Source: Sulfurimonas gotlandica GD1 (lineage in GTDB: Bacteria > Campylobacterota > Campylobacteria > Campylobacterales > Sulfurimonadaceae). From it: DNA of 64,000 bases. A program made the position numbers and the translations under genes. The notes beneath the pieces were generated by a model. The model had not been told where the DNA came from. It worked only from the letters and a program-made list of their open reading frames with translations, and ran no database searches. Each line of letters begins with the position of its first letter. Position 1 is the stretch's first letter. Location of the stretch: positions 2,046,001-2,110,000 of the forward strand of contig NZ_AFRZ01000001.1 in assembly GCF_000242915.1 (NCBI RefSeq). The letters run 5' to 3'. Positions 23,068-43,642 of this stretch are shown piece by piece.

Positions 23068-24819
23068 TTAAGTAAAAATACTATTCATATCCATATTGAA
23101 ATTTCTGCCTGTAAGGAGTGTAATATTGTTTGAATCAGCTATTTTCTTCTTAACTACTTGACTATTAGGGGGAAAACAAGAAGCTAAAATTCCTTCACCT
23201 TTTAAACCACCAAAATATCTAGTAATGTTTTGCAGTTTCATTATATGATCACTTTTTATGTTACCTGCTTTACACTCTACAATATATAATTTTTTCCCAT
23301 CTGTAAAAATGATATCAAGCTCTTGATAAGTATCTCCAATAATATTCTTTAGTTTGCTTAAACCAAATGAATTATTCTGATTTCCTTTATCTTTAAAGGC
23401 GATTTCTAGTCCTATTCTAAGGTCGTAAATGATTTGATTTTCGAGTAGTGGTTTAAATTGGATATATACATACTCTTCAAACCATCCTCCAGTAATGTAT
23501 ACGGGAAAATCCCTCCAGTTTGAGAAAGTAAAGACTTTATTTCCAATTTTTATAGTAACATCATAATCTTTTGTATATTGTATTTGAATTGTATTCTTTT
23601 GTATAGAAAATTTTTGTCTGTCATCTACATAAGGAATCATATCCCTATAAAGTTTTGCTATATTTGATCGGTGTTCCCAAAGAAACATAGTTAATTCTTC
23701 TCTTCCTTCTAAGTTAATATTTTGAATTTGATCCCAATATCCTTTTTTGGATATTGATAAATCATTACTATGTAACGTAATAAAAGTTTCTACAGAGGTT
23801 ATAGGTTTAATATCTTGATTTTTGAAATCATTTAGAAAAATTAATTTATCGTGAATAATATCGAAGTAAAAAGGTGTTGCATTTATCTTTTTACATGCTG
23901 CTAACGCCCCTGCATACATAAGTTTTGTCCCACCAGTTAAATTAAAACCAATTTTTTGATGAGAAGATGTGTTTTGAAGATAGGTTAGAATTTTTTCTTT
24001 TACATCTGATGGGTCAAATGGATTTATTTTCAATTCATCAAAGCTTGAATTACCAATAAACTGCTTCATTATTTTAGCTGGATATTGTTCAGAATTAATA
24101 AATACATGTTTTTGACTTGGGAATTGTAAAACACCCAATAAGCTAGGCATTCTTTGTTCTCCAAAAAGATGAAATAAAATATCATATTCTTCAATATGTT
24201 TATCAGAATCAACTATTTGTTTACTGTGCCAATCTAACCACTCTTGAGGTAGAGAAACAATTTCAGGTTTTTTATTTGCAATTGGTGAAACAAGAAGGTT
24301 TTTCTTTAAATTTGGTTGTCTTAATGCCGCAAAAGCCCAAACAAAAGCCATTACAGGAGTGCCTGGGCTTAAATAAAAAAAGACTTCTTTTTCAACATTC
24401 CATGATGCTACTATATCTAATGCTTGAACAGCAATATCATAAATACCCTCAGTATCATTCAAATGAGTCAATTTAACGGAATGAAAACTAACTTCCGTGT
24501 TTTTTTTATTCTCTTTGAGCTCTCTTTTAACCCAGTTAATAAAGTTAGTATGTGCTAAGTCTGTATTTGAATAAGTATTTATAAAATTCCATAGTTCAGT
24601 TTGCTTATTACTTATAAAATTACTTTGTGCTTTTTCTAAATCATTCTCAAAAATATTTTGTTCAATATTTCCCTTTTCTTTATTTGTATATCCTAAAATT
24701 AGTACATCAGTATAACTTTCTGCTTTTAATGCACTTAATATTGGACCATCACCATATTCTATACTTAGAGATGCTCTTAAATCTGTAATCCCATACCATG
24801 TTATTAATACTTTTTTCAT
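23068..24819 (-). CDS. Two-CARF PD-(D/E)XK nuclease (Card1/Can1-like) without CRISPR context
   Basis: 583 residues. The N-terminal Rossmann-like region (1-190) contains YLSPGTPVMAF (149-159), a CARF-type ligand loop. A second CARF-type module (about 215-335) has GFNLTGGTKLMYAG (291-304), the DUF1887/Card1 signature. The C-terminal nuclease has GGWFEEYV (444-451), ELD (500-502) and VECKAG (514-519), i.e. E...ExD...ExK. Card1, Can1 and Can2 are activated by cyclic oligoadenylate made by type III CRISPR. No cas10 or other cas gene is in this window, so the activator must come from elsewhere or differ. Last gene of the operon, one base after the kinase-like gene. Confidence 0.86.
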   Translation of the reverse strand: MKKVLITWYGITDLRASLSIEYGDGPILSALKAESYTDVLILGYTNKEKGNIEQNIFENDLEKAQSNFISNKQTELWNFINTYSNTDLAHTNFINWVKRELKENKKNTEVSFHSVKLTHLNDTEGIYDIAVQALDIVASWNVEKEVFFYLSPGTPVMAFVWAFAALRQPNLKKNLLVSPIANKKPEIVSLPQEWLDWHSKQIVDSDKHIEEYDILFHLFGEQRMPSLLGVLQFPSQKHVFINSEQYPAKIMKQFIGNSSFDELKINPFDPSDVKEKILTYLQNTSSHQKIGFNLTGGTKLMYAGALAACKKINATPFYFDIIHDKLIFLNDFKNQDIKPITSVETFITLHSNDLSISKKGYWDQIQNINLEGREELTMFLWEHRSNIAKLYRDMIPYVDDRQKFSIQKNTIQIQYTKDYDVTIKIGNKVFTFSNWRDFPVYITGGWFEEYVYIQFKPLLENQIIYDLRIGLEIAFKDKGNQNNSFGLSKLKNIIGDTYQELDIIFTDGKKLYIVECKAGNIKSDHIMKLQNITRYFGGLKGEGILASCFPPNSQVVKKKIADSNNITLLTGRNFNMDMNSIFT

Positions 24820-24820: not shown

Positions 24821-25471
24821 TTATTCCTTGATTAATTTTAATATTTTACTGCCTATAACAGATTGAATATTTTTATATTCATCTGGTAATATTCTTATAA
24901 TTAAGTCACTATCAAAATATTTAGCTGTACCAATTATTATCTTTTTTGTTTTTTCTTCATCCCATTCATAATGCATATGCTTATTCGGGTCAATTACTGT
25001 CTTTGTATTTAGTAAATCGTCAAATACTTCATATTCTCTTATCATCCTCAATAGGATCTCTTCATCCACTCCATGTGCATCAGTCTTTTCATCTGTTATT
25101 AATTGAGACTGTACATGTTGTTCTAGTTCTCTAGGATCTAATGTTAATATTAATATTTTATAATTATGTTCTCTAGCAAGTTGAGTATATGCTTCTGTTT
25201 GCCAAGGAGCTATATTTGTATTATCACAAATAATTACGTCTATTTGGTTTTCAATACTTTCTTGGAACGAAGCAAAATTTTCTTGATGATATTTTTTAAG
25301 ATTTTTAATATCAAATATATACTTTCCTTGTTGCATAAAATATTCATCTGTTGAGTGTACCACAACTTGTAAGTCATTTTTTTTAAGTTCAAGAACAATA
25401 CAATTAGTAATTGTTGTTTTACCACTACCTGGTACTGCTCTATTTATTATAACTGTTTTTTTAATCATCAC
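24821..25471 (-). CDS. Polynucleotide-kinase-like P-loop protein
   Basis: 216 residues. Walker A RAVPGSGKTT (11-20), STDEYF (40-45, the acceptor-side Asp), IICDNTN and W at 90-100 match the AAA_33/N4BP2-type polynucleotide kinases related to T4 Pnk and phage-type 5'-kinases. It would phosphorylate a 5' OH of RNA or DNA. It overlaps the upstream 1159-residue gene by 11 bases and is one base from the CARF nuclease. Pairing with a nuclease suggests end-processing of cleavage products or of a ligand. The substrate is inferred only from family. Confidence 0.75.
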   Translation of the reverse strand: MMIKKTVIINRAVPGSGKTTITNCIVLELKKNDLQVVVHSTDEYFMQQGKYIFDIKNLKKYHQENFASFQESIENQIDVIICDNTNIAPWQTEAYTQLAREHNYKILILTLDPRELEQHVQSQLITDEKTDAHGVDEEILLRMIREYEVFDDLLNTKTVIDPNKHMHYEWDEEKTKKIIIGTAKYFDSDLIIRILPDEYKNIQSVIGSKILKLIKE

Positions 25472-28400
25472 TAATACCTATTATTTTAATGCTATTCGCA
25501 GAATTAGTATCACCTGTTAAATAAATTCTTAGTGCATGTAATAAATCAGGGATACTTTTAAAATCTTCTTGTTTAACTAATTCTATTTTTAATCTTGTAT
25601 GAAGAGGGATATTTTTTTCTACATACAACTTTGTAATTTCATCTATTACTTTAACATACTTTTTGGTTAGTAAATTTTGTGGACATAATATGTCTTTGGT
25701 TTTTTTTCTCAATCTAATTAATGCTAATAGTAGTTCAAATTGTTTCACCAAATTTCCCATTACTGTTTTTTTATTTTTATTAACTTTTAATGTATTAAAG
25801 TTATACTCCATAGTTATCAATAAACTTTCAATTATTTTATTTGCATCATATTTCAGCAAAATAAAAATAAAGTTTTCAGATCTCCAGCTTGCAATAGCTA
25901 AAATATTCATAATGACATTAGATAAAGAACAATTATTTACATTATTTAGTACATTACTAAGAATGTCTTTTTGCCATTGTAATTGACATGAACCAAGAGA
26001 AAGAGCAAGATGTAAAGAATATTTTTGATTTCTATCTAAATCTGAAGAAAACTTTACTAATGTATTTGAAATCTCCGTAGGCATATCTTGATGAAGTGAT
26101 GATAAAAAGAATAATAGTTCATTCTTTAATTTTACAGAAACTTCTTTATCAGACATTAATTTCAAAGATAGTTTAATATAAACATGAACTTTTTCTCTAA
26201 AATCATCTGGAGTATTGCTTTCAACTAAAGAGTGCTCATTCCACACAGTCAATAAAGGATATCGTATACTACCTACTGCCTTAACAATTTTTTCTGTTTT
26301 ATCATAAATTGATTTCTCTGCAAGTTCATTCTGTAATTTTGTGATTATTTCATTCTCAATAATATCTATATCTAAATTTGAGAATCTTATATTCTTGCCT
26401 ATAAAACCATGTGTTCCTTCATTAATATTTAAAAAAACTTCGTCACCCTCAGATAAATTACTAGGGTCTATATTCTCAACAAAGTTTTTAGCAGGACAAA
26501 AGATGCTATTGCCATTAACATTTACTCTACAATAGTAGTTTCTATTCTTATCATAAGCTCCCCACTCAAAATACCCAGTTTCTTTTGAGTTTACACTTGC
26601 AATTGCTTCATTAATATCTCTATCTATGATAAACTGAGGTACTTTATTAATTTGTAATAAATCTAGTCTTTCCAGTATCCATTCTAATAAGTTTGAATAT
26701 CCACTTCCATCTCTTTTTGGATCTCTTAAAAAGTCTTCCCATTTTCTTTTGGGTGGATATTCCGGTGTCGGTAAATGTTGACAATCCTTATACTGTATCT
26801 CTTTCCAGTTCACTTTTAATGGTTGAATAGAATTGTCTAGAGCACAAAATATTAATTTATAAGGAGTTTCAGCTTCATAGCTATATGTTAACTTCAATTC
26901 ACATACTAAATTATCTGTTAAAGGTAAATCATTGGAAGTTATATAGGCTTCAAAATTTATATTTTCTTCATCAGAGATTAAAGGAAATGATAGTTTACTA
27001 GTATTTGCAGGAATTATGAAATGGTTAGAAATTTCAATATTTCCATTTATTACTTCACTGTTATCATCTACCAATACGAATTCGTCAAAATATCCATGCT
27101 TAACTATTTGCATAGCTAGTTTTGGTAGATGTTCTCTCCATAAAGTAAATCCATCTTTTTCATACCGCAATAATTTATCAAAATTATTTAAATTTTCTAT
27201 ATTATCATCATCTAAATAAGTTGTATCTTTCTGAAATAGTTTATTACTTGTATACATTTTCTTTATTTTACCTAATGACGTTTCATCAAGTCTTGTATTT
27301 GGTATTTTTAACTTTTCAAGAGTCAGGATGTCGTCATTATTTTGAAAAACAATATTTTCTTTTTTTAGTATCTTAATACCATTTTGTAAAAATTTATTTA
27401 AAAGCTTTTTAGAAGTTTCTCTAGGGAAAATTTCACTTACAGCATCCAAAATATCTGTAGACTCCGTTAATCTTTTTGTTGGGTGTTTTTCAATATATAA
27501 ACAATTTGTTATTGACTTTAAGGTTTCATCATATCTTATTAAAAGTGGAGTAACAAAAATAGTGTTGTTATGATCTTTTTGTATATATATTAATGTATCC
27601 CCCTCATTACAATCACTTTCAAAAAGATATTCTAATCCAGCTAATATACTTTTAGGAACAACTCTATTGTTTTTAAAATAGCTATTAATAGTTTTTTTAA
27701 CTTGAGAAAACTCGAAAATATTTACATAGTCTGGAATGATATAGTTGACTTTGGAAGATTTAAAATATTTTGTAAAATCTTCTAAAAAATATTTAAGAAT
27801 ATCAGTATCATAAGTTTTTAATATTTCTGGTAAAGTAAAAATTTCTCGATTTAAATCAATAACTTTAGTATTATTTGCATTTATTATTTGCGTATCTATT
27901 TTTTGTTTTATTAGTATTGGAAAATTAATTATGTCATCATTAATTTTACAGATAGGGGATAGTCTAAATAAATCTAAATATACATTATCTGATACTATTG
28001 GATTAATACCAAAAATTCGATTCTGATTAAGAGATATTTCTAATTGATCTTCAATAAGAGTTTTATTTATATTATCAATGTCTTTAAATTTAGAGATATC
28101 AGTATTAGATATTTTAATATTCAACAGCTTTACTTTATTTAATAAAGCATTATTAAAATCACATTTTATTCCAAATGAGTGAGTGTCTATTTCTATCTTT
28201 GATGGTTTAACTAATGTATTTGATTTATATTGTAATTTTGCCAACATATCCATTATAATGATTAAGTATGTTTGTTTCGGATACATTTTCAATAATTTAT
28301 CAATTTTTTCATTTAAACTATTTAACCACTTATAACTCTTAAATATCTTACTATAATGTTGATGATGTAGTAAGATATTATTGTAAACAACTCTCTTATA

Positions 28401-28940
28401 CTCATCTATACTTTTAGCATCATCACTTTTTAGCCATTTCCTAATCTTAATAAATAAATGAGTAAATTCTTGTAGATCATCCCTCTCATCATATACTAAA
28501 ATAAGTTTTTTCAGTAAGATTTTAAATATTCTATTTTCATAAGTGTCTACATTGTCATATCTTTTAACAGTCTTTATTTTATTGTTTTTGAGTTTTTCTT
28601 TAATTGTTCGTCCATTTTGACGACTAAGCCATAAAATACTTTCTCGATCAAATTCTTTGGCTTGAGATACAGGTAGTATCTTGTGCTCTCTTTTTATCTC
28701 TTTATTTATATTTCTTATTAAATATAAAATTGTATCTTGAGTATATTCTAAAATATAATATATATCATCATAAAAAGTATCTTTTTTATAATCAAATTGA
28801 CTTATATTTTCTAAAAAAGTAAATAGATCTATTTGAGTGAAATTTCCTATACTTTTATCAAAGGTAGAATTTTTATTGAGCCAACTTAGAGAATACAGAA
28901 TCTCTTTATTCTCTTCCTTATAAAGATTTAAAAGCTCCAT
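25461..28940 (-). CDS. Large DUF2357-like protein with possible cold-shock-like domain, partner of McrB-like ATPase
   Basis: 1159 residues. The N-terminal third resembles DUF2357 proteins found beside McrB-like ATPases: EFDRESILWLSRQNGR near 112-127 and VDTYENRIFK near 151-160, the ENR-F signature also seen in McrC-like proteins. Around 800-870, a beta-rich stretch (GYFEWGAYDKNRNYYCRV... GDEVFLNI) could be a cold-shock or OB-like fold. The last 280 residues look like helical repeats. I see no PD-(D/E)XK motif, so it is not a complete McrC nuclease. Immediately downstream of the McrB-like gene (gap 1 base), so probably its partner. Confidence 0.6.
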   Translation of the reverse strand: MELLNLYKEENKEILYSLSWLNKNSTFDKSIGNFTQIDLFTFLENISQFDYKKDTFYDDIYYILEYTQDTILYLIRNINKEIKREHKILPVSQAKEFDRESILWLSRQNGRTIKEKLKNNKIKTVKRYDNVDTYENRIFKILLKKLILVYDERDDLQEFTHLFIKIRKWLKSDDAKSIDEYKRVVYNNILLHHQHYSKIFKSYKWLNSLNEKIDKLLKMYPKQTYLIIIMDMLAKLQYKSNTLVKPSKIEIDTHSFGIKCDFNNALLNKVKLLNIKISNTDISKFKDIDNINKTLIEDQLEISLNQNRIFGINPIVSDNVYLDLFRLSPICKINDDIINFPILIKQKIDTQIINANNTKVIDLNREIFTLPEILKTYDTDILKYFLEDFTKYFKSSKVNYIIPDYVNIFEFSQVKKTINSYFKNNRVVPKSILAGLEYLFESDCNEGDTLIYIQKDHNNTIFVTPLLIRYDETLKSITNCLYIEKHPTKRLTESTDILDAVSEIFPRETSKKLLNKFLQNGIKILKKENIVFQNNDDILTLEKLKIPNTRLDETSLGKIKKMYTSNKLFQKDTTYLDDDNIENLNNFDKLLRYEKDGFTLWREHLPKLAMQIVKHGYFDEFVLVDDNSEVINGNIEISNHFIIPANTSKLSFPLISDEENINFEAYITSNDLPLTDNLVCELKLTYSYEAETPYKLIFCALDNSIQPLKVNWKEIQYKDCQHLPTPEYPPKRKWEDFLRDPKRDGSGYSNLLEWILERLDLLQINKVPQFIIDRDINEAIASVNSKETGYFEWGAYDKNRNYYCRVNVNGNSIFCPAKNFVENIDPSNLSEGDEVFLNINEGTHGFIGKNIRFSNLDIDIIENEIITKLQNELAEKSIYDKTEKIVKAVGSIRYPLLTVWNEHSLVESNTPDDFREKVHVYIKLSLKLMSDKEVSVKLKNELLFFLSSLHQDMPTEISNTLVKFSSDLDRNQKYSLHLALSLGSCQLQWQKDILSNVLNNVNNCSLSNVIMNILAIASWRSENFIFILLKYDANKIIESLLITMEYNFNTLKVNKNKKTVMGNLVKQFELLLALIRLRKKTKDILCPQNLLTKKYVKVIDEITKLYVEKNIPLHTRLKIELVKQEDFKSIPDLLHALRIYLTGDTNSANSIKIIGISDD

Positions 28941-28941: not shown

Positions 28942-31602
28942 CTAATCTTCTTTTAGGTAATTTGCACTATTCCATATAAATTGTCCATAAGGGTTATCCA
29001 TAGATAATTCAAAATCTTCTGTTATTTTAAAATCATTTTGATGTATTATTTCCCGAATATTATGTAATACTTCTTTCTCTTTTCCATGTGTTTCAATTCC
29101 TCTTAATTTTGGCATTATCTTTTGTACTAGTTGCTCTTCAAATGCATATTTAACATTTAAAGCTAGTTCATCTTCATTATGAATATTTTGAATAACTAAT
29201 GGATGATTATTAATATAATATTCCATTGATTGCCATACTCTATGTCCTATGGCTCTTCCAGTAGGTGTTAAATAATCATTAATTTTATTTGCAATATCTT
29301 TATATTTATACAATACTTCTATATTATCTTTTGTGAATACAGATTCCTTTTGTAGCCATTTGTTCCAAGTATCTCTATTTAAATATTCAAACTTTTTTAT
29401 TTCATCAAGAGTTTTTAATTTTCCCCTGCTTAAAAGTTTATCAGGTCTTGGAAAATTAATTGCAAAACTTCTATCTAATACCTTGTCTGAAAGTGCTTTT
29501 GTAGTTTCATCTTCATTCATTGTTCCAATCCAGAGGACATTTCTATCTAATGGTAGTGGATAATTCATACCGGCACCAAGTTTAATATCTAAATTTACTC
29601 CGTCTTTCCCTCGTCTTAATTCAAACTTACTTAGAAATTCTGCAAAATAAAGCTCTATATGAGATAAGTTCATTTCATCTAAAAGTATCATATTCATACT
29701 TTCTTGCCAGCCAAATTGTGAATCATTTTTACTTTGTGCGGTTTGAAGTAAAAATTTCAATATATTTGATGAATCAAATTTATTTTCAATGGTATTATAA
29801 TATCCCAACATTGATTCTGGAGAATCCCAAGTAGGTTGAACGGCTTCTGCTAAAAAGTTGAATCCACCAAAATGTGAATAAAGTTTTGGAAGTTCAGATT
29901 TACCTGTTCCACTTACACCTGCTAAAACAGTCAATGGAGAGTACTCGGCACTTTTAAGTGCGGTATGAAATGCATTTAGTAATCTTCTTGGATACTCAAC
30001 TCCATATGTTTTCATATTAGACTCAATTGAATCCAAATATTTTATCTCATCTGTTACATTTATTTCAGAGTCTAACTCTCGTTTTAAGAAAGGCTCCCTT
30101 CTTATGTCTTCAACTCTAAGCTCTTTCTCTTTGGATTGAGTAAAGAGTTGATTCATGCTATCAAGTCTATTCTGTAATATTTGATTTTCCGATTTTAAAA
30201 AACTTATCTCTTTGAGTTTTTCAGATAATATATTATTTTCACTTCTTAATTGTTCTATGCTTTCAATTTCAATTCTAAAATTTTGGTTTTCTTGGTATAA
30301 ATTTTTCATTTCTACCTCAAATGATAGAAAATCAATCTCTTTTTTACTTTCTATTTCACGTTTTTGTTTTCGAATCTCTTCAATTTTTTCTTTCAAGATT
30401 CTCAGCTCACTATTTTTTTCTTTTAACTCTTGTGGTAAGTCTCTATCTTTAAATTTTTCATGTTCATCAAGTTCATCTTTTAAATCAAATAATTCTTCTT
30501 TTAGTTTTTGAATCTCTAGCTCATGATATTTTAACTTATCTTGATAAGTTTTTATCTCTTCACTAACTTTTTCTTTAGCTTGTTTATATAGCAGGTCTTC
30601 TTGAGATTCTAAATATTTTTCTTTAGCTAAAATTTCATTCTCTTGAATTTTAAGTTTACTCTCTTTTTGTATTATACTTTCTTCTTTTTTATTTATATCA
30701 ATCTCTTTAGTTTTATACAATTCTTCTATTATTTTATTTATCTCTTCAAGTTTACTTACTTTTTGTGCTTCTTGTCGGTGAGTAAAAATCTCTTTTTCAT
30801 TAGCTATTTCTTCTTTATACTCATTTAACACTTTCTCTTTTTGAGATTCAAATATCTCTTTGGCTTGAGAAAACATTTTTTCCGATTGATTAAGCTCTTG
30901 TTGCCATTGTGTAAGCTTTAACTCTTTTTGTATCAGATCATCTAACTTAGTATGAATTTTTTCATAATCAGTTTTTATACTTTTTAAAAACTCATCTTTT
31001 AATTGTGTCAGGGTTTTTATTTTTTGTTCTTCTAATTTTGTTTTATGCTTTAATTCTTCTTCAATGAGTTTTTCTTCTAAAGCTTGTTTTTGTTCCTTCA
31101 TATACTTTTCAAACTCAGTTTTTTCTTGTTTAAACTGAGTGTTTTGATCGATCAGTTTCTTTTTAAATAATGCTAGATATTTGATTTTTATGTCAACTTG
31201 CGCTTCTTTGGTAATTTCAGTATTTTCAATACCTAAGTCTTTACAAATTTTTGTAACCATATCGATACCTACACCCATTTCATTGGCTAATTCTTCTTTC
31301 GTCATTTTAGTCTCTCCATTATTTGTTTGATCGTCAGTATATTTTTCTTCAGATGGTTCTTCTTTTTCAACTACAGCTTTATGAATTTCACTTTTTGATG
31401 AAGAGGAAGCCTTAACTTCTACTTCTTGTGTTGATGTATCGCTATTCATAATGAAGTTCATCAAACTTTCAGCTTCTTGTATTGTTACTGTACTTTGTGC
31501 TGACTTTACTTCTATGCCCAGTTCCGAAGCTTTTTCAACAACGTCTTTAGAAGTTATTCCTAGCTCATTTGCAATTTCGTGTATTCTTATTTTTTCTATC
31601 AT
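28942..31602 (-). CDS. IF2_N - coiled coil - McrB-like AAA+ NTPase
   Basis: 886 residues. Residues 1-52 (RIHEIANELGITSKDVVEKA) match the IF2_N domain of translation initiation factor IF2. A second, weaker copy lies at about 98-150 (TKEELANEMGVGIDMVTKIC). A Lys/Glu-rich coiled coil spans about 150-510. The AAA+ domain has Walker A AGVSGTGKSEL near 560, Walker B MILLDEMNLSHIE near 640 and the McrB sensor GTMNEDETT. McrB NTPases drive McrC nucleases on modified DNA. Here the recognition domain is replaced by IF2_N and coiled coil, which might contact tRNA or the ribosome, or be a DNA-binding winged fold. ATG overlaps the upstream stop by 4 bases. Confidence 0.85.
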   Translation of the reverse strand: MIEKIRIHEIANELGITSKDVVEKASELGIEVKSAQSTVTIQEAESLMNFIMNSDTSTQEVEVKASSSSKSEIHKAVVEKEEPSEEKYTDDQTNNGETKMTKEELANEMGVGIDMVTKICKDLGIENTEITKEAQVDIKIKYLALFKKKLIDQNTQFKQEKTEFEKYMKEQKQALEEKLIEEELKHKTKLEEQKIKTLTQLKDEFLKSIKTDYEKIHTKLDDLIQKELKLTQWQQELNQSEKMFSQAKEIFESQKEKVLNEYKEEIANEKEIFTHRQEAQKVSKLEEINKIIEELYKTKEIDINKKEESIIQKESKLKIQENEILAKEKYLESQEDLLYKQAKEKVSEEIKTYQDKLKYHELEIQKLKEELFDLKDELDEHEKFKDRDLPQELKEKNSELRILKEKIEEIRKQKREIESKKEIDFLSFEVEMKNLYQENQNFRIEIESIEQLRSENNILSEKLKEISFLKSENQILQNRLDSMNQLFTQSKEKELRVEDIRREPFLKRELDSEINVTDEIKYLDSIESNMKTYGVEYPRRLLNAFHTALKSAEYSPLTVLAGVSGTGKSELPKLYSHFGGFNFLAEAVQPTWDSPESMLGYYNTIENKFDSSNILKFLLQTAQSKNDSQFGWQESMNMILLDEMNLSHIELYFAEFLSKFELRRGKDGVNLDIKLGAGMNYPLPLDRNVLWIGTMNEDETTKALSDKVLDRSFAINFPRPDKLLSRGKLKTLDEIKKFEYLNRDTWNKWLQKESVFTKDNIEVLYKYKDIANKINDYLTPTGRAIGHRVWQSMEYYINNHPLVIQNIHNEDELALNVKYAFEEQLVQKIMPKLRGIETHGKEKEVLHNIREIIHQNDFKITEDFELSMDNPYGQFIWNSANYLKED

Positions 31603-33527
31603 AAGTTATTCTCCATTAGAATTTTGATTAATTTAAAACTATCAATCTTTAATTTCCTTAGATACTCAAGTGAAGTTTGTTCAATCTCCTCTATTGATGG
31701 ATTAGAATGTTTTCGCTCAACAAGAATCTTTTGTAGTAGATTTATTACTTCTGCATCTATATCTTCTAGATAATAAAGATAGACCAAAAAATAAGCTCCT
31801 AAACTAGCCTTTTGATTTTTTTGAGCTTCTTCAATATTGATAGGATTAACCGATAATAAACTAATATTTAAATTATTTTCACCTATTTTTTCTATAATTT
31901 CATCTTTACAAGTTATTTTTCTTCTATCTGCACATAATATTGCAACTATATTTTTAAATATGTATTCAAATGATGAATAAAGTTGATTGATTATTTCTTT
32001 AACAATAATATATTTATTTTCTTCAAAATTAAGTTCATTTAGATAATAGTTAATATAAACCAGATTATTCTGCACTTCTTGTGGTAATTCTTTAAGAATA
32101 TCTATTGATAATTCAACTTCTAAGTCTATATAAGAGTTTTGAAAATATATATCATCATTGTTTTCTATATTATTAATATTACTTTTTTCTTTTATTCTTA
32201 GTATAAGAGAGATAACTAAGTAAATTGTTTTAATGTAGTTTTCTATTGTTGAGATTTCAATATTAGTTAAAGTTTCTTCATGCCCAGAGTGCTTTAATGG
32301 ATTTCTTATACTAAACAAATTACTTATTGTGTACAATAAGTTAGGATATTTCATAGCAACTTCATAAATTTCATCTTTTTTGTAAAATAAAGATTTTGCA
32401 ATAAATTTTTGTAAATTATCTTGCTTTGAGACATTGAAAATTGGTAATTTATCAATTTTAATATTTAAATTAAATCCAGCTTTTAGTGCCAATTCATATA
32501 GTAAGTTTTTATTTTTTAAACTTTCTGTGTCATTTAGGTTTTTAACATAATTCTTAAATGTTTGCTCTAAACCATCATACAAAGATTTCATTATTTTGTC
32601 TTTATAAAAAATAATACTAGCTTTGCTATTAGTATGATTTAACTTCTCTTTATTATTCTCTATCTCTTGAATATTTTTTAAAACTTCAGGGAAGTTTATT
32701 ATTTTATTTTCAAAGGGTACATCTATCTTGTTTACTTTCAATTCTATATCTTGCTTTAATTCACTTCTAAAATATGAAATTAAGTTTTGATGCTGATTCT
32801 TATATATCTCTCTAAATAAAATAGAATAATCATTAGTAAATCCATTACTAATAATAATTGAATCATTGCTATTTTTTGGCATGTATAGTTTTGCATGAAG
32901 ATAAATTAATTCATTGGTGTTCACTATATCAATTTTAAAATTTTGATAGTCTATTTTTGAAAAATTTTCATAATTTTTTTGATTGTGTAAATAAATTGAT
33001 TTTATAATATCTTCTCTTGTAGGTGCTGAAGCTTGCTCATTAAATCTATCTACTAGGATTGCTTTAGTCTTTCGGTTAGATGATATTTTTTGTTTGAATG
33101 CTATTTCTCTATAAATATCCTCTTGAAATTTTTTATTATTCTCAGGATAAGAAAACTCATTAAGATCTTTTGTGATTATTGGTAATAATTCCCCGGTATA
33201 AGCCTCCTGGTAAAATAGATATACATTGACTTCATTCTTTTCAATATCATCATTTCTATCTGATAGCTTTAGTTGCTTTAACCTTTTTAGCACTAGCTTG
33301 ATAATATCTTTATTTTCAAATCCCAATAAAGATGATAGTCTATCTATATCAGTAAATAAGCTATCATCTATATCAGTCAGTTCTAATATAGTCTCTTCTA
33401 AAAAGTTTAATTTGTTCTCTCTAGAAGTTTCAATAGGAACTTTATATATCCAACAGGGAATAAGTAAATCTTTTTTTAACTTATAATCAATACTATCTTT
33501 ATCAGATTCTACACTCAGTATTTTCAT
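31599..33527 (-). CDS. Large hypothetical protein with HEPN-like RNPLKH motif
   Basis: 642 residues, family not recognised. The N-terminus (about 25-75) may be a winged helix. The remainder is mostly helical. At about 407-412, RNPLKHSG matches the R-x4-H pattern with Asn after Arg that marks HEPN ribonucleases such as those of Cas13 and many toxins, and lies next to a long helix (ENYIKTIYLVISLI) as expected. A second stretch near 610 (ERKHSNPS) is weaker. The gene sits between the UPF1-like helicase and the McrB-like ATPase with 4-base overlaps at both ends, so it is part of the same machine. The HEPN assignment is tentative. Confidence 0.5.
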   Translation of the reverse strand: MKILSVESDKDSIDYKLKKDLLIPCWIYKVPIETSRENKLNFLEETILELTDIDDSLFTDIDRLSSLLGFENKDIIKLVLKRLKQLKLSDRNDDIEKNEVNVYLFYQEAYTGELLPIITKDLNEFSYPENNKKFQEDIYREIAFKQKISSNRKTKAILVDRFNEQASAPTREDIIKSIYLHNQKNYENFSKIDYQNFKIDIVNTNELIYLHAKLYMPKNSNDSIIISNGFTNDYSILFREIYKNQHQNLISYFRSELKQDIELKVNKIDVPFENKIINFPEVLKNIQEIENNKEKLNHTNSKASIIFYKDKIMKSLYDGLEQTFKNYVKNLNDTESLKNKNLLYELALKAGFNLNIKIDKLPIFNVSKQDNLQKFIAKSLFYKKDEIYEVAMKYPNLLYTISNLFSIRNPLKHSGHEETLTNIEISTIENYIKTIYLVISLILRIKEKSNINNIENNDDIYFQNSYIDLEVELSIDILKELPQEVQNNLVYINYYLNELNFEENKYIIVKEIINQLYSSFEYIFKNIVAILCADRRKITCKDEIIEKIGENNLNISLLSVNPINIEEAQKNQKASLGAYFLVYLYYLEDIDAEVINLLQKILVERKHSNPSIEEIEQTSLEYLRKLKIDSFKLIKILMENNL

Positions 33528-36500
33528 AATATCTTACCTTTATCTTCACATAATTGTAAAAAATTATACAATTCCTCAACATCTTGTTTCGATCTTTCAC
33601 TATTAAAAAACTCCCTATCACCTACAACTATTAAACTCTTTTTTTGCCTACTCATGCTTACACAAAGTCTATTCTTTGAAATTAAAAATCCAAATAGATT
33701 ATAATTCTTTAATTTGCTATTTATTTGTTTTACATTTTTACTTCTTACTACTGATAAAAAGACAATATCAAATTCCATTCCTTGAAATGAGTCAACGGTT
33801 CCTACTTTGAGTCTATCCTTAAAAGATTCTCTTTCATCTTTAGAAAATTCTTGCTTTATTTTATTCTCTATCAATGTTACTTGCTTCCTGTAAAATGTAA
33901 TTATTCCAAAATCAAATTTTTTACCTTCTTCTGAGAATATCCATTTTCTAAGATAGTCTACAATTTTTGTTGCTTCGCACTCTCTACTCCACGCCCCTTC
34001 TTCTTTACATTCACTATTTTTAACATCAATCCAAATTGCAGGAGTATTCTCAATTTCTTTTAAACCTTGATAAAAGTATTTTTGCACATCTTTTAATGGT
34101 GATTCAAATCCTTCCTTATGCATATCATAAAAATTCTCACTTATGAATTTTCCTAATAATGGATGTGTTCTATATTGATTTTTAAGTGTGATTGCTCTCT
34201 TGATACCATCATAGCTTTCTAGTTTTTTTGCTCTATCCTTGAGATAACCAAACATACTTTTTGTTATAAAATCATCCTCACTGAGTTCACTGTCTTTTAT
34301 AACATTCTCATCTACAATATGGGGCAGTTGTCTATGATCACCCACTAAAATAATTCTTCTTTTCGCTTGAACCATTACTATTAATAAATCCATAGGTGAT
34401 ACTCTTGCCGCTTCATCTATAATGACAGTATCATATACTACAGAATCTTCTTTCGCTATTTTTTTTGCTTTTGTAATATCTTTCCCCATTGATTGTTGAG
34501 TTGTTGATGAAAATACAAAGCTATACTCTTCTATCAATGATTTTAAAGCAAATGGATTATTTTCAAGCTCATTAATATAGTTAGCTAAAACACTACTAAG
34601 TTTATCCTTTGTTGTTCCGCCCATGGACAATTCTTTTTCTATATCATCCTTTAATTTAATTATTTCATTATTTGGCTTTTCTGCTTTAAATATAGTTCTT
34701 GGATAGAGTCTATTGATTAGTGAGTATTTTAATTTCTGTATTTTTATCAAATAGGCATCTAAATCACTATCTACATTTTGTAAAATATTTTTCTCTTCCT
34801 TGTTTAATAACTGACCTATACCTGAGGCTAATAAATCTTCATTTCTTTTTTCACCATCATCATTAAAAGCAATCATGGTGGTTCTTAATGCGTAAATATA
34901 TTTTAATTTTTCTACATTATCTACTGTTGATTGTTCAAAACTCTCTAATAGCTCGTTTGAATAAAGAAGAGTTTTTGAATTTAACAAAGTTGATAACTCA
35001 AAAATAATATGTTTTAATAATTTTATTGCTAGTCTTTGTGATGGAGTTTTAATATATATATCAAAGTACTGTTCTAAATCTTTTATTTTTTGATAATTAC
35101 TGAGTTCTGGTAAGTTTTCTTTTACATTTGTAGAAATTTCATTACCCCACTTCATTACATTTTCAAAAGAGGTGATATCCACTAATGTAGTGGACTTTTT
35201 TCCAAACTTTGGAGTGGGTAGGCCATTGACATTGAGTCTTGAAATAATGTTTTCTACGGCATCATGTTGAATTCCAGTTACAAGGATATCTCCTTTTGTT
35301 TGTGCAGTTTTATCAGCCTGTTCATTAAGTATTTCGATAATGGCAGTTACAATAGTCGTTTTTCCAGTTCCTGGTGGTCCTTGAATAATAGCAATATCTG
35401 GAGTGTTTAATGCTATATCAATAGCTTCCATTTGATTGTCTGTCGGAGTATTACTGAAAATTTTATTTTCAATGCTTTCTGTTAATCCTTCTATTTTCTT
35501 TGCTTTTTTATTATTTTGATACTTTTTTATATTTTCAGTATCTTCAATGATTAATCCTAAAAATGGGTTTGCGCTCTTTCCGGTGAGTAATCTTTTTCTA
35601 GCTTCAAGTTTCCTCTCTATTTGTACTTGATCACCATAAATAGATAATATATTTTTTTTATTTTTCAACTTAGATATATTTTTATCTGTTTTTATAGTTA
35701 CTAAACCATGCTCGACCTTAGATATCTGGAAAGTTTCTATTGTTTCCTTTTTTAATCCTAGAGTATTCCTTTGTTCAAGTTGTGCTATGTATTCATCCCA
35801 CGAATAATCATCTTTGATATATGAAGGAATTACATCAACAAATGATAAATAATCATTTTCCTCTAGTTCTTCAGGAATTGATTCAAACTTTAGATCATAA
35901 CCATCAGCAGTTGGTATGGGGTCATCTAATAATTTTAATTCACCTATAGCTTTTGCTTTTTTTAAGAGTATTTCACCTTCAAGCTTCGAATATTCATCCC
36001 ATTTTTTCAAATAACTATCATCGTTCTCTACTATATTGCCTAAATCTTTAGCTATTTTTTCACTAACTAAGCCATTTTTAAATTCTATATCTGCTTTTAT
36101 AAGCTGTAAAGAGTCTTTTTTAATATTATTTTTATATGAGACTAATTTTGTAGCAGTAAATCTATAGTCACCAGCTTCTGTAATATCTTTTTTAACTGGT
36201 AAGTGAATCATATCTCCATAAATAGAAAAAGCAAGTTCTTTCATAACTGTTTGCTGAGGACACTTATCTATATACTCTTCTTCTTCTTTAATAATAAATT
36301 TCTTTATCTTTATTTGTTCTTCTTTTTCCAAATTATTAAGTGTAATGTTGTTCTCAATCTTTTCAATTTGATTTTTAAGATTTTTTATATTATTTACATG
36401 TGTTGCTGTTAAAAATTGAAAAATTTCTTCTTTTGATGAATTCCCACTTGACACTAAAAAATATGTTTCATTATTGATTTTAATTGATATTTTTTCTTTT

Positions 36501-36895
36501 AATACTTTTGCAAGATAATTTATATCATCTTTGTTTTTTATAATTTTTCTTTTTCTTGCTGTTGCCAAAATTTCTTCATCTATTGAAACATAAAAAGGTA
36601 CAAATAAATTTCTAATAGGGTAAGAAAAAAATATAATTTCCATTGTAAAGTACTTATCTCTCGATGCTTCAATGATATTGATAATTGCTGTATAATTTTT
36701 CACTTGAAAGAAAAAATCTATTTCATCTAACTTGTTTTTATCAATTATTTCAATCTTATATATTTTTTCATTGATAAATATAGAATAGTTATTATCATAC
36801 TTTAAAAATCCAAGTCCAATCTCTACTCTAGTGCTATTTAAGTTTTTTACTTCAACTTGAAATACTGTATCTGTTTTAATTGCATCTAAAATCAT
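33524..36895 (-). CDS. UPF1-like superfamily 1 DNA/RNA helicase
   Basis: 1123 residues. After a long N-terminal region (about 1-480, beta- and helix-rich, unrecognised) comes a P-loop IIQGPPGTGKTTIV near 503-516. The DEAD-like motif VIIDEAARVSPMD lies near 825, followed by GDHRQLPHIV, NQYRTHPLLG, and the C-terminal motifs VDSFQGMEFD and SMSRQKKSL. This is the AAA_11/AAA_12 order of UPF1/DNA2-type helicases, which run 5'-3' on RNA or DNA. It overlaps the kinase gene by 4 bases, linking it to the phospho-signalling triad. Confidence 0.85.
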   Translation of the reverse strand: MILDAIKTDTVFQVEVKNLNSTRVEIGLGFLKYDNNYSIFINEKIYKIEIIDKNKLDEIDFFFQVKNYTAIINIIEASRDKYFTMEIIFFSYPIRNLFVPFYVSIDEEILATARKRKIIKNKDDINYLAKVLKEKISIKINNETYFLVSSGNSSKEEIFQFLTATHVNNIKNLKNQIEKIENNITLNNLEKEEQIKIKKFIIKEEEEYIDKCPQQTVMKELAFSIYGDMIHLPVKKDITEAGDYRFTATKLVSYKNNIKKDSLQLIKADIEFKNGLVSEKIAKDLGNIVENDDSYLKKWDEYSKLEGEILLKKAKAIGELKLLDDPIPTADGYDLKFESIPEELEENDYLSFVDVIPSYIKDDYSWDEYIAQLEQRNTLGLKKETIETFQISKVEHGLVTIKTDKNISKLKNKKNILSIYGDQVQIERKLEARKRLLTGKSANPFLGLIIEDTENIKKYQNNKKAKKIEGLTESIENKIFSNTPTDNQMEAIDIALNTPDIAIIQGPPGTGKTTIVTAIIEILNEQADKTAQTKGDILVTGIQHDAVENIISRLNVNGLPTPKFGKKSTTLVDITSFENVMKWGNEISTNVKENLPELSNYQKIKDLEQYFDIYIKTPSQRLAIKLLKHIIFELSTLLNSKTLLYSNELLESFEQSTVDNVEKLKYIYALRTTMIAFNDDGEKRNEDLLASGIGQLLNKEEKNILQNVDSDLDAYLIKIQKLKYSLINRLYPRTIFKAEKPNNEIIKLKDDIEKELSMGGTTKDKLSSVLANYINELENNPFALKSLIEEYSFVFSSTTQQSMGKDITKAKKIAKEDSVVYDTVIIDEAARVSPMDLLIVMVQAKRRIILVGDHRQLPHIVDENVIKDSELSEDDFITKSMFGYLKDRAKKLESYDGIKRAITLKNQYRTHPLLGKFISENFYDMHKEGFESPLKDVQKYFYQGLKEIENTPAIWIDVKNSECKEEGAWSRECEATKIVDYLRKWIFSEEGKKFDFGIITFYRKQVTLIENKIKQEFSKDERESFKDRLKVGTVDSFQGMEFDIVFLSVVRSKNVKQINSKLKNYNLFGFLISKNRLCVSMSRQKKSLIVVGDREFFNSERSKQDVEELYNFLQLCEDKGKIL

Positions 36896-38301
36896 TTTAC
36901 TATCTCGATCTCTACTAATATTGTTGTATTTTTTACATCTTCTATAATTATCTTTATGCCTTCTTCAAATTTTGTTAATCCAATCCCTTTTCTCGTATTA
37001 ACCATTGGTGTTTTAGATTGAAAGTATATATTTTCTTTTTCTTTTTCAAAATAGAGATCTACTCTTGTTTTTTTAATAAAATTTATTTCTAAGAAAGTAT
37101 CATCAATTTTTAAAATATCAAAGGATTTAAAAAGGTACATTGGTAATTCAATTCTTTTTGTATTATCTGTTATCTCAGTAATATATTTCCATCGTTCTTT
37201 TAATTTTTGGCCATCCTTGTATAAATAAGATTTTACAATCAATCTTTTAGGCTTTTTACTATCACAATATGGACATTTTTCAAATATTTCATCATAATAA
37301 CTCATCTTGCAATTATTACATTTGATAGTTTTTGTCGCTGCTTTTTCCAATGTTTCTATCCAAATTGGTAATGTAGGTCTTTTAAATTTATCATCTTTCC
37401 CTTCTTCAAAGAGTTTATGAAAAAGTAAATCTAATTCATTTGTTATTGCTAGATTGTGTCTTAATCCAGCTTTGCTTTTATTTGAGTTATCATTACCATC
37501 TTCTATCCATGGTAATTCCCATTGCTGTTTTGAATAAGTATCACTATCCCAATCTGATTCCTTATTGCCAGAACCATTAAAAGGATGAGTGGTTGTGAGA
37601 GTTAAAAACGATAATATTCCAAAAGCAAAAATATCACTGTATAATGAATTTGCTTCTCCTCTTACAACTTCAGGTACTTCAAAATTAGGGGTAAAAATAA
37701 CATTTTTATTTATTGATTCATATTCAATATTATCCGCATCTATAAGATAAACTAAAGGTATATCATCTTGATTAAGAAAAATATTATTATGAGAAATGTC
37801 AAAATATATAAGTCCTCTTATGTGAAGCCGATATAAAGTTATTGCTAATCTACTTAAACTATAAAGTCTTTTTCTTAGTCCTCCAGTTTCTAAATAGTAT
37901 GTAAAATATATTGCACTTCGTTCATCATTTTGACTAAGATCTAACAAAAAATCAGGAATCACAATCTTTTTTGCTTTTTCCTTTGAAAGTTCACTTGGAA
38001 ATAAAGAAGAAAATGGCTCCATGCCATCTAGAAGGTTCATTACGTATCCAGCTTCATTTTTAAGAACCGCTAATGGCTTCGCTATATTTATATTATTTGG
38101 CAAAGGTTTGAATATTAGTTTTTTTATTTTTTGATGGATTTTTTTTATTTCATCACTATTTGTAATAGTTTGATCATTTGATAATACTAATTTTATTACT
38201 GTATCCGCATCTTTTGTTTTATATACAACACCTTGTCCACCACGACCTAATTCTTCATCTATATAGTGTGTATTATTAAATTCATCAATATATTTATTCA
38301 T
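36892..38301 (-). CDS. Ser/Thr protein kinase with C-terminal zinc ribbon (TerY-P type)
   Basis: 469 residues. Kinase fold: glycine loop GRGGQGVVYKT (19-29), VIKLV with the ATP-binding Lys, catalytic loop YFDISHNNIFL (Asp kept, HRD changed to YFD), metal motif IDADN in place of DFG. A zinc ribbon follows at about 329-352 (CNNC...CPYC), then a beta-rich tail of about 110 residues that might be a recognition domain. Known precedent: a vWA-PP2C-kinase triad (TerY-P) tied to tellurite-resistance-type and conflict loci. It overlaps the PP2C gene by 8 bases, a typical kinase-phosphatase pair. Confidence 0.87.
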   Translation of the reverse strand: MNKYIDEFNNTHYIDEELGRGGQGVVYKTKDADTVIKLVLSNDQTITNSDEIKKIHQKIKKLIFKPLPNNINIAKPLAVLKNEAGYVMNLLDGMEPFSSLFPSELSKEKAKKIVIPDFLLDLSQNDERSAIYFTYYLETGGLRKRLYSLSRLAITLYRLHIRGLIYFDISHNNIFLNQDDIPLVYLIDADNIEYESINKNVIFTPNFEVPEVVRGEANSLYSDIFAFGILSFLTLTTTHPFNGSGNKESDWDSDTYSKQQWELPWIEDGNDNSNKSKAGLRHNLAITNELDLLFHKLFEEGKDDKFKRPTLPIWIETLEKAATKTIKCNNCKMSYYDEIFEKCPYCDSKKPKRLIVKSYLYKDGQKLKERWKYITEITDNTKRIELPMYLFKSFDILKIDDTFLEINFIKKTRVDLYFEKEKENIYFQSKTPMVNTRKGIGLTKFEEGIKIIIEDVKNTTILVEIEIVK

Positions 38302-39016
38302 TTGATTCCTTTATAAGTGTAACAATAGTTTTATCATCAGTATGACCACGAACAGGCCAGTTCTCTAACCATTTTTTTATCTCTTTATTTCTTTTTAATG
38401 GAGATAATTTTTTATAATTGGAAACATAATTTTTAAAAAAGTCTAACATCCGCTCTTTTTTAATATCTTCAGATATACCGTCACTGCAAAGTACTATATT
38501 ATCAACTTCTTCTTCAGCATAAATTTTCCATTCTATCAATGTTTCTCTTCCAAATGGAGTTGTGTAGTTTGTAAACGAATCTTTATCTTCTTCTATTAGT
38601 CTGCTATTAGTTCCTAAAACAGCGATAGCACCATCGCCAACTCTACCAATATATATTTTTTTATTTTTCACTATTCCAAAAAGTAAAGTTGTAGCTGTCT
38701 CATCTGCTGTATAAGGGTTAATATTCATTTTCCATAAATCTCGGACTAGTGGCTCAAATAGTACTCTATCCTTTGCATCAAAATCAAATATTTTACTTGC
38801 TTGAACAACTGATTTAACCAGTGCATTAGATCCAATATGAGAATAACTTTTACTTCCTAATCCATCACATACAATGCCTATTATTCCCCAACTGAACTGT
38901 TTTACAACATATGCATCTTGGTTGGGAATATTATTTTTAATGTGAAGCGGACCAATTTGAGATACTCCCCAGCCACTCCATATATTACCATTCATATTCA
39001 TCATTCTCTTCTTCAA
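38294..39016 (-). CDS. PP2C-type protein phosphatase
   Basis: About 235-240 residues. Metal-site motifs of the PPM/PP2C family are present: NQDAYVV near 30, IVCDGLGS near 50, VGDGAI near 120-125, LCSDGISEDI near 175. Such Mn/Mg-dependent phosphatases reverse Ser/Thr phosphorylation. The frame overlaps the upstream vWA gene by 32 bases if the first ATG is used; a later Met (MNGNIWSGWG) would reduce the overlap and is a plausible start. Opposes the adjacent kinase. Confidence 0.9.
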   Translation of the reverse strand: MKKRMMNMNGNIWSGWGVSQIGPLHIKNNIPNQDAYVVKQFSWGIIGIVCDGLGSKSYSHIGSNALVKSVVQASKIFDFDAKDRVLFEPLVRDLWKMNINPYTADETATTLLFGIVKNKKIYIGRVGDGAIAVLGTNSRLIEEDKDSFTNYTTPFGRETLIEWKIYAEEEVDNIVLCSDGISEDIKKERMLDFFKNYVSNYKKLSPLKRNKEIKKWLENWPVRGHTDDKTIVTLIKESNE

Positions 39017-39431
39017 TATTACTTAAGGTATTGTATGTAAATAATATATATTCTATTGCAGCTATGATATTCTCAGGTTCAAAAACTTTTAAAGTAGCTT
39101 TTTCTAAATAATCAATATTAGCATCAATTCCTATTGAAATAGAAATGAGATTGTTTAATTTAACTTCATCATTAAACAATCCGTCACTTATTAAAATATT
39201 GTACATGAGATTTGAATTACTTAAAAAGTTATTTAATATATTCATATTCATATTCTTATCAAATCTAATTGAAGTTATTCTATCTACAATCTTTCCGTCA
39301 AATGTATAAGTAGTACTTTGTAGATTATTAAATTCACAATAATCCTGTATAGACTTTACTGCATATATAGCAGCACTATCTTTCCCCATTTCGGTCATAC
39401 TTCCAGAAGTATCAATAAAAATATTAATCAT
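38985..39431 (-). CDS. Small von Willebrand factor A (vWA) domain protein
   Basis: 148 residues, a single compact vWA fold. The MIDAS motif is FIDTSGSM (D7, S9, S11) and a later strand has LISDGLFND. It is shorter than TerY and lacks any extra domain. vWA proteins bind partners through a metal, often under phospho-control. It overlaps FtsK-like and PP2C genes on either side, so the order is FtsK, vWA, PP2C, kinase. Confidence 0.8.
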   Translation of the reverse strand: MINIFIDTSGSMTEMGKDSAAIYAVKSIQDYCEFNNLQSTTYTFDGKIVDRITSIRFDKNMNMNILNNFLSNSNLMYNILISDGLFNDEVKLNNLISISIGIDANIDYLEKATLKVFEPENIIAAIEYILFTYNTLSNIEEENDEYEW

Positions 39432-41979: not shown

Positions 41980-42198
41980 TTATGGTAAAATAGTTCTTGC
42001 TTCTAATAGCATTTGATCAACTTCTAATATCTTGATTTTTTTTTCATTTTCTTCTATCATCGATAGATTATTTAATATGTTATTTATAGGATCTAATATT
42101 TCATTTACAACTGAACAACCAAAATCATCATTTACATTTTCACTAAAACTCGAACTAATATTTAAAAATTCATTTTGTATTGGTCTAAAGTCTGCCAT
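41980..42198 (-). CDS. Small hypothetical protein between immunity and FtsK-like genes
   Basis: 72 residues, acidic and helical, not recognised. RBS aggaaag before the ATG. The two-helix profile with a hydrophobic heptad would suit a WXG100-like partner or a chaperone, but it has no W-x-G turn. Spaced 9 bases from both neighbours. Confidence 0.6.
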   Translation of the reverse strand: MADFRPIQNEFLNISSSFSENVNDDFGCSVVNEILDPINNILNNLSMIEENEKKIKILEVDQMLLEARTILP

Positions 42199-42206: not shown

Positions 42207-42596
42207 CTAGCTCAAAGCTTCAATAAATTTATCAAAATCAAATAAATATTGAATTCCATTGTTTTCATGGTTATAAAAATAAACTTTTAAATTATCCAAA
42301 TCTATTAAGTAATAATTTCCAAAGCCATCCTTTGCCAAAGGTATAAAATCTTTTATATTTTCTTTTAAATTATCAAATGAATCATAGAATGACTCCTCGG
42401 AACTTTCATTGAAATTTAATATATTATTTACAATATACTCACTACTTTCTACTTTGAATCTATCATTTTTAGGATAGGATGCATTTGCTTCCATTAAAAA
42501 ACTCATCAACTCTACAGGTAGTTTCTTTTGAATATATTTTTCAATATTTTTTATACTGTTATCATTAAGTTCAATATTTAATTGCCATTCATTCAT
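42207..42596 (-). CDS. SUKH (SMI1/KNR4) family immunity protein
   Basis: About 129 residues from the ATG at 42596, chosen because it has RBS aaggga and overlaps the toxin stop as ATGA. Contains the SUKH pattern: KKLPVELMSFLMEANA near 30, then IPLAKDGFGNYYLIDLD near 88 and a C-terminal FDFDKFIEAL helix. SUKH proteins are common immunity proteins for nuclease toxins in contact-dependent or type VI/VII systems. Here it directly follows the HNH toxin it presumably neutralises. Confidence 0.83.
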   Translation of the reverse strand: MNEWQLNIELNDNSIKNIEKYIQKKLPVELMSFLMEANASYPKNDRFKVESSEYIVNNILNFNESSEESFYDSFDNLKENIKDFIPLAKDGFGNYYLIDLDNLKVYFYNHENNGIQYLFDFDKFIEALS

Positions 42597-43642
42597 TTTT
42601 GTTCCCTTTCTGTCCAAAGCAAAAAACCACCATCATGTCTTACTTTATCGTGTTTATCAGACTTGATTAATTGTATTCTTCCAGGTGGTGGATTGCCATC
42701 ATGATGCCAAGTATACCCTTCAGGATTCTTACCAATATATATCTGTTTTAATTGTCTATTAGTAAAAAAATTTCTTAATTCTTCATCTTCTTCAACTTTA
42801 TTTTTCAAATGAACATTAGCAACTCTAAAGTGTTGCGCTCTTGATTTATCATAATCCTTTGGCTTAATAAAAACATCACATCCACTTTCAAATTCTGGTA
42901 ATCCATATTTACTAATTTTTACATTTTCACTTTGTGCATATTGGCTCTCTCTAAAATTTTCTTTTTGGCGATTAAGTTTTTCAATATATGCTTTATTTAA
43001 CTCTTCTTTGCTAATCTTTCCTTGCTTGTATTGATATAGTTGATACTGATATTTTTCTGTAACTACATCTCGCTGTTGTTCAATAGATGAATTGCTATAG
43101 TCTTGAGATAAATAACTTTCCAAAATAGACTCTGCATTATTTAATCTAATACTCAAAGTTTGGCATAACGAATCAAAACTATTTATACTACTACTAAATA
43201 TTGTTTGCAAATATTCTAAAAGCTCATTGCAATTATAATGAGCTCTATTTACAAGCTCAACTCTTTCTTCCATTCTATACCTTGATTGTTTAGCTTCTTC
43301 ATATTCTTGCTCAGCTATTCTAACTTCATTAGCTGTTCTTGCTACTTCTGCACTAGCAGATGCAATAGCCATTGGATTTTCTGAAGCTTCCGCTCCAGCC
43401 AATTCAGCCTCTGCATGTAAATGTTCAGAAATTTTAGCAGTTAATACACCTTCAGTATATACCTCTTTAGTTTGAGCGCGTTCAAGCATATTTTGTGATA
43501 GTATCAACTCTTGTTCAACTTCATTTAATTGATTTGTTACTTCATTAATAGAAATATTAACTTCATCATTAGTTGAAATTAAGACAGTACTCGCCGAAGA
43601 GTTTACATCTTGTAAAATTTCAATATTTTTTACAGATACCAA
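42593..43642 (-). CDS. Polymorphic toxin: helical N-terminus with C-terminal WHH-type HNH nuclease
   Basis: 349 residues. About 20-215 is long amphipathic helix (coiled coil, resembling secretion-domain parts of type VII substrates, but not a clear LXG domain). The C-terminus (about 290-349) has GYTWHHDG (309-316), RIQLI, then KHDKV (H331) and RHDGG (H336): the W-H-H ... H ... H pattern of WHH-subfamily HNH/ENDO VII toxins that cut DNA. It follows the WXG100-like gene by two bases and overlaps its SUKH immunity gene, a classic effector-immunity pair. Confidence 0.83.
   Translation of the reverse strand: MVSVKNIEILQDVNSSASTVLISTNDEVNISINEVTNQLNEVEQELILSQNMLERAQTKEVYTEGVLTAKISEHLHAEAELAGAEASENPMAIASASAEVARTANEVRIAEQEYEEAKQSRYRMEERVELVNRAHYNCNELLEYLQTIFSSSINSFDSLCQTLSIRLNNAESILESYLSQDYSNSSIEQQRDVVTEKYQYQLYQYKQGKISKEELNKAYIEKLNRQKENFRESQYAQSENVKISKYGLPEFESGCDVFIKPKDYDKSRAQHFRVANVHLKNKVEEDEELRNFFTNRQLKQIYIGKNPEGYTWHHDGNPPPGRIQLIKSDKHDKVRHDGGFLLWTEREQK

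Follow-up and report, generated by a model that had tools for sequence, protein, structure and literature searches.

In the 64-kb window, as we call the whole stretch of DNA that was analysed, an operon of 15 minus-strand genes runs from 44615 down to 23068 (21.5 kb), in which neighbouring genes are never more than 12 bp apart and many overlap slightly. Its last gene is an open reading frame of 583 amino acids with an ATG start codon, which encodes a predicted nuclease carrying two CARF domains. The genes, in the order in which they would be transcribed, and the basis on which each was assigned are as follows.

43926..44615, minus strand: first-gene VWA protein, TerY-like, with DVSYS..T..D (sequence)
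43644..43913, minus strand: WXG100 protein (Pfam)
42593..43642, minus strand: helical protein fused to a colicin-DNase/WHH (HNH) toxin domain (Pfam)
42207..42617, minus strand: SUKH/SMI1 immunity-like protein (Pfam)
41980..42198, minus strand: 72-aa protein in the place of a second WXG100-like protein (position only; no Pfam match)
39424..41970, minus strand: EssC/FtsK-like ATPase (profile matches)
38985..39431, minus strand: internal short TerY-like VWA protein (DTSGS start, position and overlaps; no Pfam match, and the middle Thr not recognised by eye)
38294..39016, minus strand: TerY-P PP2C phosphatase (Pfam)
36892..38301, minus strand: TerY-P serine/threonine kinase with a C-terminal CxxC..CxxC zinc ribbon (Pfam and sequence)
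33524..36895, minus strand: CnuH, UPF1-like SF1 helicase (AAA_11/AAA_12 and IGHMBP2-family matches)
31599..33527, minus strand: CnuE with two HEPN motifs (RNPLKH, R408..H413; RKH, R605..H607)
28942..31602, minus strand: CnuB, NxD-motif McrB-like GTPase with a long charged coiled-coil-like region (N-terminal IF2_N; N696-E-D698)
25461..28940, minus strand: CnuC homologue, McrC/DUF2357-type (homology to DUF2357/CSD proteins)
24821..25471, minus strand: AAA_33/KTI12-type P-loop protein, polynucleotide-kinase-like (Pfam, PADLOC, PHROG)
23068..24819, minus strand: two-CARF PD-(D/E)XK nuclease (CARF1 about 1-190, RtcR-like; CARF2 212-341, Can2/Card1-like; nuclease 438-583)

In the nuclease protein, two Pfam families exceeded the cut-off, CARF_Card1 (215-341) and Card1_endonuc (441-556), and the PADLOC family CARF4--CARF_PDDEXK spanned the full length with 860 bits. 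An AlphaFold model (mean pLDDT 85, pTM 0.66) predicted Rossmann-like folds for residues 1-190 (approximately) and 212-341, and after them a linker module and, at 438-583, a nuclease fold, the placement of the CARF and nuclease domains relative to each other being uncertain owing to the pTM value. When we aligned 39 homologues, the loop SPGTP of CARF1 (151-155), the TGGTK (295-299) of the CARF2 loop NLTGGTK and the residues E448, E500, D502, E515 and K517 of the nuclease were all found to be invariant, and therefore these are not chance motifs. The protein thus retains the complete E..ExD..ExK set and carries an intact predicted catalytic site in a computed domain structure. An earlier note on this DNA had described two tandem CARFs and a Card1-type E..ExD..ExK nuclease in one chain, which Pfam, PADLOC, the AlphaFold model and the alignment jointly confirmed; the kinship with Card1-type proteins that it had drawn held for CARF2 and the nuclease, but CARF1 turned out to be of a different, RtcR-like type.

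The part comprising CARF2 and the nuclease aligned with Can2 and Card1 by sequence, and with the Can2 structure 7bdv by fold (Foldseek E 3e-20, TMt 0.79). Mapping the cA4 contacts of Can2 manually from the printed alignment, we observed that Thr42, Lys99 and Tyr118 correspond to S/T243, K299 and Y318 of CARF2, which were kept in 39 of 39 homologues, so that CARF2 retains three of the four cA4 contacts common to Can1 and Can2. The fourth, Ser19, corresponds to Gly220 and is Gly in all 39, therefore cA4 itself may not fit CARF2. VC1899, a relative which is not activated by cA4, has lost these contacts (PMC7969007). CARF1, on the other hand, was nearest outside its own family to RtcR_PspF2 in the PADLOC family comparison, where RtcR-type families matched with E values of 1.3e-14, 3.9e-5 and 8.7e-3 and the family CARF_PDDEXK_TM fell between them (1e-8). 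Its profile also matched the CARF domain of Escherichia coli RtcR in hhalign (probability 74%, E 2.8e-5, 92 residues of a single template), while CARF2 (probability 1.7%) and shuffled controls gave no match. The RtcR-likeness of CARF1 is thus a PADLOC and hhalign result, a Pfam scan of CARF1 alone having returned no RtcR match. Judged by sequence, CARF1 and CARF2 are unlike, one being RtcR-type and the other Can2/Card1-type, and this contrast places two separate ligand hypotheses on one protein. The CARF domain of RtcR binds 5' tRNA halves with a 2',3'-cyclic phosphate end (PMC7790460) and is also reported to bind proteins, namely RtcAB (PMC9650030). Its resemblance to CARF1 may therefore serve as a lead on the ligand, namely RNA with a 2',3'-cyclic phosphate, although a ligand in common would be a guess because the match extends over 92 residues of one template. 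CARF1 also occurs on its own: at L018 1501-2043 we noticed a stand-alone CARF1, 37% identical, without the remaining nuclease protein, directly after a large ORF whose C-terminal half is membrane-like.

Compared with known CARF proteins, Can2/Card1 (DUF1887 family) resembles the CARF2-nuclease part in sequence, fold and all catalytic residues, whereas the window protein has the additional N-terminal CARF1, Gly for Ser19 and no type III CRISPR partner. Can1 of Thermus thermophilus likewise combines a pair of CARFs with a PD-(D/E)XK nuclease in a single chain, but it has a second, nuclease-like domain, while the model of the window nuclease predicts a single nuclease fold and nothing between the CARFs, and the RtcR-like CARF1 is no duplicate of CARF2. 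RtcR itself is a CARF-AAA-HTH activator; the window protein resembles it in the CARF domain, has neither AAA nor HTH, and has a nuclease as its output. It also differs from a CBASS effector, as no CD-NTase was found in the window operon or the genome.

The operon as a whole is an extended type III-A CoCoNuT, an antiviral kind of system which has already been described, and the nuclease is its effector and no stray CRISPR part. For extended type III-A CoCoNuTs a protein has been reported which combines a D-ExK nuclease with two distinct CARF domains, whose RING nuclease motifs differ (Bell et al. 2024, PMC11090510). In common with these the window has the 2xCARF D-ExK nuclease, two VWA genes around an EssC-like ATPase and a WXG100 protein, the TerY-P triad (its internal VWA recognised by sequence and position only), CnuH adjoining CnuE, the RxxxxH and RxH motifs of CnuE, an NxD CnuB with a coiled coil, and a DUF2357-type CnuC which lacks PD-(D/E)XK and has a cold-shock domain in its homologous family. 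The N696-E-D698 and Walker motifs of CnuB were invariant in an alignment with 8 homologues, the coiled coil being judged from sequence, and RNPLKH (408-413) and RKH (605-607) of CnuE lined up with homologues. In the homologous family of CnuC, DUF2357 was found in 10 of 11 proteins and CSD in 4 of 11; the window CnuC itself gave no Pfam match and no PD-(D/E)XK was found in it, and in a profile search of PDB sequences, in which the Hsp70-like NBD/SBD and the HEAT repeats were sought, cold-shock proteins were the only matches. Three features set the window apart. Its toxin is a colicin-DNase/WHH protein with a SUKH partner, in place of the D-ExK coiled-coil protein and DNA mimic of published CoCoNuTs; its CnuB has an N-terminal IF2_N, unlike the published ones; and its nuclease gene, which most of the relatives examined carry between the ATPase and the internal VWA, comes last, following CnuC and the kinase-like gene at the 3' end. 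IF2_N is the N-terminal domain of translation initiation factor IF-2 (Pfam 6.4e-15), and a scan of two plasmid CnuB homologues did not find it.

An alignment query with the nuclease returned 42 relative loci, and CoCoNuT, TerY-P or EssC/SpoVK-type genes lay within the fetched flanks of 40 of them. The exceptions were L022, a short contig with a kinase-like gene and a C-terminal fragment which looked CnuC-like by eye, and L063, a partial match. Enterobacterial and Caballeronia plasmids carried the same operon with annotated WXG100, FtsK, VWA, PP2C, kinase and DUF2357 genes, and no relatives of the nuclease were found in the phage records or viral contigs searched. The nuclease gene followed CnuC in nine other relatives as well, while its placement at the 3' end behind the kinase-like gene was seen in the window and in an Arcobacter MAG. 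In the nuclease tree the window and L022 were sisters (100/100), nested among relatives in which the gene lies between the ATPase and TerY-P, and hence two changes must be assumed along this tree to account for the 3' position, gene positions having been assigned by hand. We treat this placement as gene-order variation and not as a core feature. Some relatives showed peculiarities of their own. At L017 829-2118 the nuclease part was joined to a DNA-methyltransferase-like stretch and at L019 849-2689 a kinase-CARF-nuclease gene was split across several frames, which recalls the fragmented CoCoNuT genes of Helicobacter (PMC11090510). A Klebsiella plasmid with an operon relative (L020) carried an annotated mcr-10.1 at 8612-10231, about 10 kb from the nuclease gene. 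WCX/WYL-type regulators were present near the operon in the window (48364-49323, plus strand) and near the nuclease gene of the Arcobacter relative (L022 3254-4246).

We then searched for sources of cyclic nucleotides. Profile searches of the window and the genome bore out the statement of the earlier note that the window holds no cas gene; the operon setting, an extended type III-A CoCoNuT, had however escaped it. Since an effector of just this make-up (2xCARF plus D-ExK) is described in CoCoNuTs, the lack of CRISPR is normal for this nuclease family and no anomaly. A type III locus elsewhere in the genome with its own cyclase had been named beforehand as the finding that would count against the note, and none was found: the source genome (one contig, 100% complete) returned no RAMP (Csm/Cmr) and no Cas1 match, and no Csm1 match above the cut-off. 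A CD-NTase as the suggested source of the activator was not found either, there being no SMODS match in the genome, and the operon contains no cyclase-like gene. As far as these searches reach, the canonical sources of cyclic oligonucleotides are absent from this genome; the activator may still be made by an operon protein or come from an unlinked source, as the note proposed. We considered 23 genomic matches to the Cas10 palm domain as candidate cyclases and rejected them, all eight that were fetched carrying GGEEF and being diguanylate cyclases; among sub-cut-off Csm1 matches two of four carried GGEEF, and the two other fetched stretches had no GGDD-type motif. In the relatives' genomes, many of which are drafts so that counts of absence are approximate, RAMPs were present in 5 of 42 and SMODS in 13 of 40, with neither in 25 of 40, and therefore the nuclease cannot as a rule depend on CRISPR or CBASS. 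The source genome also lacks RtcB, and therefore the canonical RtcAB-type RNA-end cycle is absent.

The gene directly preceding the nuclease gene matched AAA_33/KTI12 in Pfam and a polynucleotide kinase family in PHROG (E 1.6e-11), its best PHROG (1.5e-16) being named only ATPase, and two phage relatives which we inspected adjoin a putative RNA ligase 1. It occurred in 4 of the 397 genomes of the phylum sample, each of which also had the CARF-nuclease. In two of these (G078 and G185) the kinase-like domain was fused to CARF2-nuclease, replacing CARF1, and in G366 the kinase/CARF-nuclease region was broken into several frames. The fused form is already listed in PADLOC as CARF_PDDEXK_AAA (PDLC01900), which shares the kinase-like domain and CARF2-nuclease with the window, but the two are separate genes here and the window nuclease has the CARF1 that the fused protein lacks. 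Almost none of the relatives has the kinase-like gene, therefore it cannot be essential; the paper on CoCoNuTs (PMC11090510) does not, as far as we found, mention it in its main text. Its coupling to the nuclease points to RNA ends as the currency of the system.

HEPN and PrrC-type RNases leave 2',3'-cyclic phosphate and 5'-OH ends. We consider it somewhat more probable than its opposite (about 55%) that the nuclease is an abortive-infection effector of the CoCoNuT which is fired by products of RNA cleavage and not by a CRISPR signal, the ligand itself being presumed. Following the published CoCoNuT proposal, phage infection would trigger the CnuB/CnuC GTPase complex and the CnuH helicase, with the threshold presumably set by the TerY-P kinase and phosphatase pair. 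The HEPN protein CnuE, and perhaps also the neighbouring putative PrrC-like protein, would then cut RNA and produce 2',3'-cyclic phosphate and 5'-OH ends, which, possibly after trimming or phosphorylation by the kinase-like product, may become ligands of the RtcR-like CARF1, either alone or alongside another nucleotide bound by CARF2. By homology to Can2 the nuclease would open and cut DNA and RNA unspecifically, and the growth of the infected cell would stop. The lack of RtcB, the rarity of the kinase-like gene among relatives and the narrow basis of the RtcR match count against this reading. RNA fragments with cyclic ends have been suggested as CoCoNuT signals, mainly for RtcR-like regulators (Bell et al., PMC11090510). 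A more specific version, which we advance only tentatively, would do without CRISPR and have the nuclease set off by RNA fragments of the system's own making: CARF1 would read cyclic-phosphate ends from the operon's own HEPN RNase, the kinase would edit these ends and CARF2 would act as a second lock. If true, this would be a CARF effector with no need for a dedicated cyclic-nucleotide synthetase.

The activator could instead be a cA4-like cyclic oligonucleotide made by a synthetase that has escaped recognition, encoded in the operon or elsewhere in the genome, and CARF1 would then assist CARF2 in a structural or an autoregulatory (ring-nuclease-like) role. We regard this as rather doubtful, although S/T243, K299 and Y318 match three of the four Can1/Can2 contacts which the cA4-insensitive VC1899 has lost, the differing RING nuclease motifs of the two CARFs would suit it, and a cyclase might exist which matches neither Cas10 nor SMODS profiles; against it speak the Gly at the position of Ser19 in every homologue, the lack of a cyclase domain in any operon protein, and the absence of CD-NTase and Cas10 from the genome, along with that of SMODS and RAMPs from 25 of the 40 relatives' genomes. 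That the nuclease borrows cyclic oligoadenylate from type III CRISPR or CBASS where these co-occur appears very improbable, since the minority of relatives' genomes with RAMPs (5/42) or SMODS (13/40), which would permit it, is outweighed by the majority with neither, the complete source genome included, and by a nuclease gene which travels with CoCoNuT genes, on plasmids too.

It is also conceivable, though we hold it improbable, that the CARFs sense no diffusible ligand and that a protein partner (the kinase-like protein, CnuC or phosphorylation by TerY-P) switches the nuclease. The kinase-like domain which stands in place of CARF1 in G078 and G185 suggests that partners may dock on the N-terminal half, and the reported binding of RtcAB by an RtcR CARF agrees with this; but ligand-loop residues which are invariant in both CARFs of 39 homologues from many phyla count against it. 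With the operon recognised, a seemingly orphan CARF nuclease finds its place in a known defence class, and a concrete question is raised, namely what activates CARF effectors where neither Cas10 nor CD-NTase exists. The two-CARF D-ExK nuclease of CoCoNuTs was already known; what is added here is the RtcR-like CARF1, the CARF2 contacts, the coupling with the kinase gene and the local variation in gene order.

The window holds other genes of interest. On the plus strand, 12406-19648 contains what look by eye like type I restriction-modification genes and, after them at 17411-19648, the gene of an AAA_13 protein. This protein matches PADLOC PDC-S06 over its full length and PrrC in part, and on inspection its C-terminus (SIRNILE...LIHDNSHG) recalls the motifs of anticodon nucleases. 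A comparison of this PrrC-like protein with solved structures gave no match; from its sequence it is a possible, putative source of cyclic-phosphate tRNA ends. A 1646-aa protein (4727-9667, minus strand), in which a RecQ-type helicase appears by eye to be joined to a UvrD-type helicase, and a methyltransferase-HNH fusion recognised by Pfam (10009-11754, minus strand) are likely to be further defence genes. Upstream of the operon, a 117-aa ORF (46816-47169, plus strand) corresponds to the N-terminal part of an FtsZ/tubulin GTPase (Pfam 5.9e-18) without the C-terminal half. Finally, a 105-nt direct repeat (4343-4447 and 11960-12064, 82% identical), with a third partial copy of 30 nt at 20814-20843, has its copies spaced between the gene cassettes of the island.
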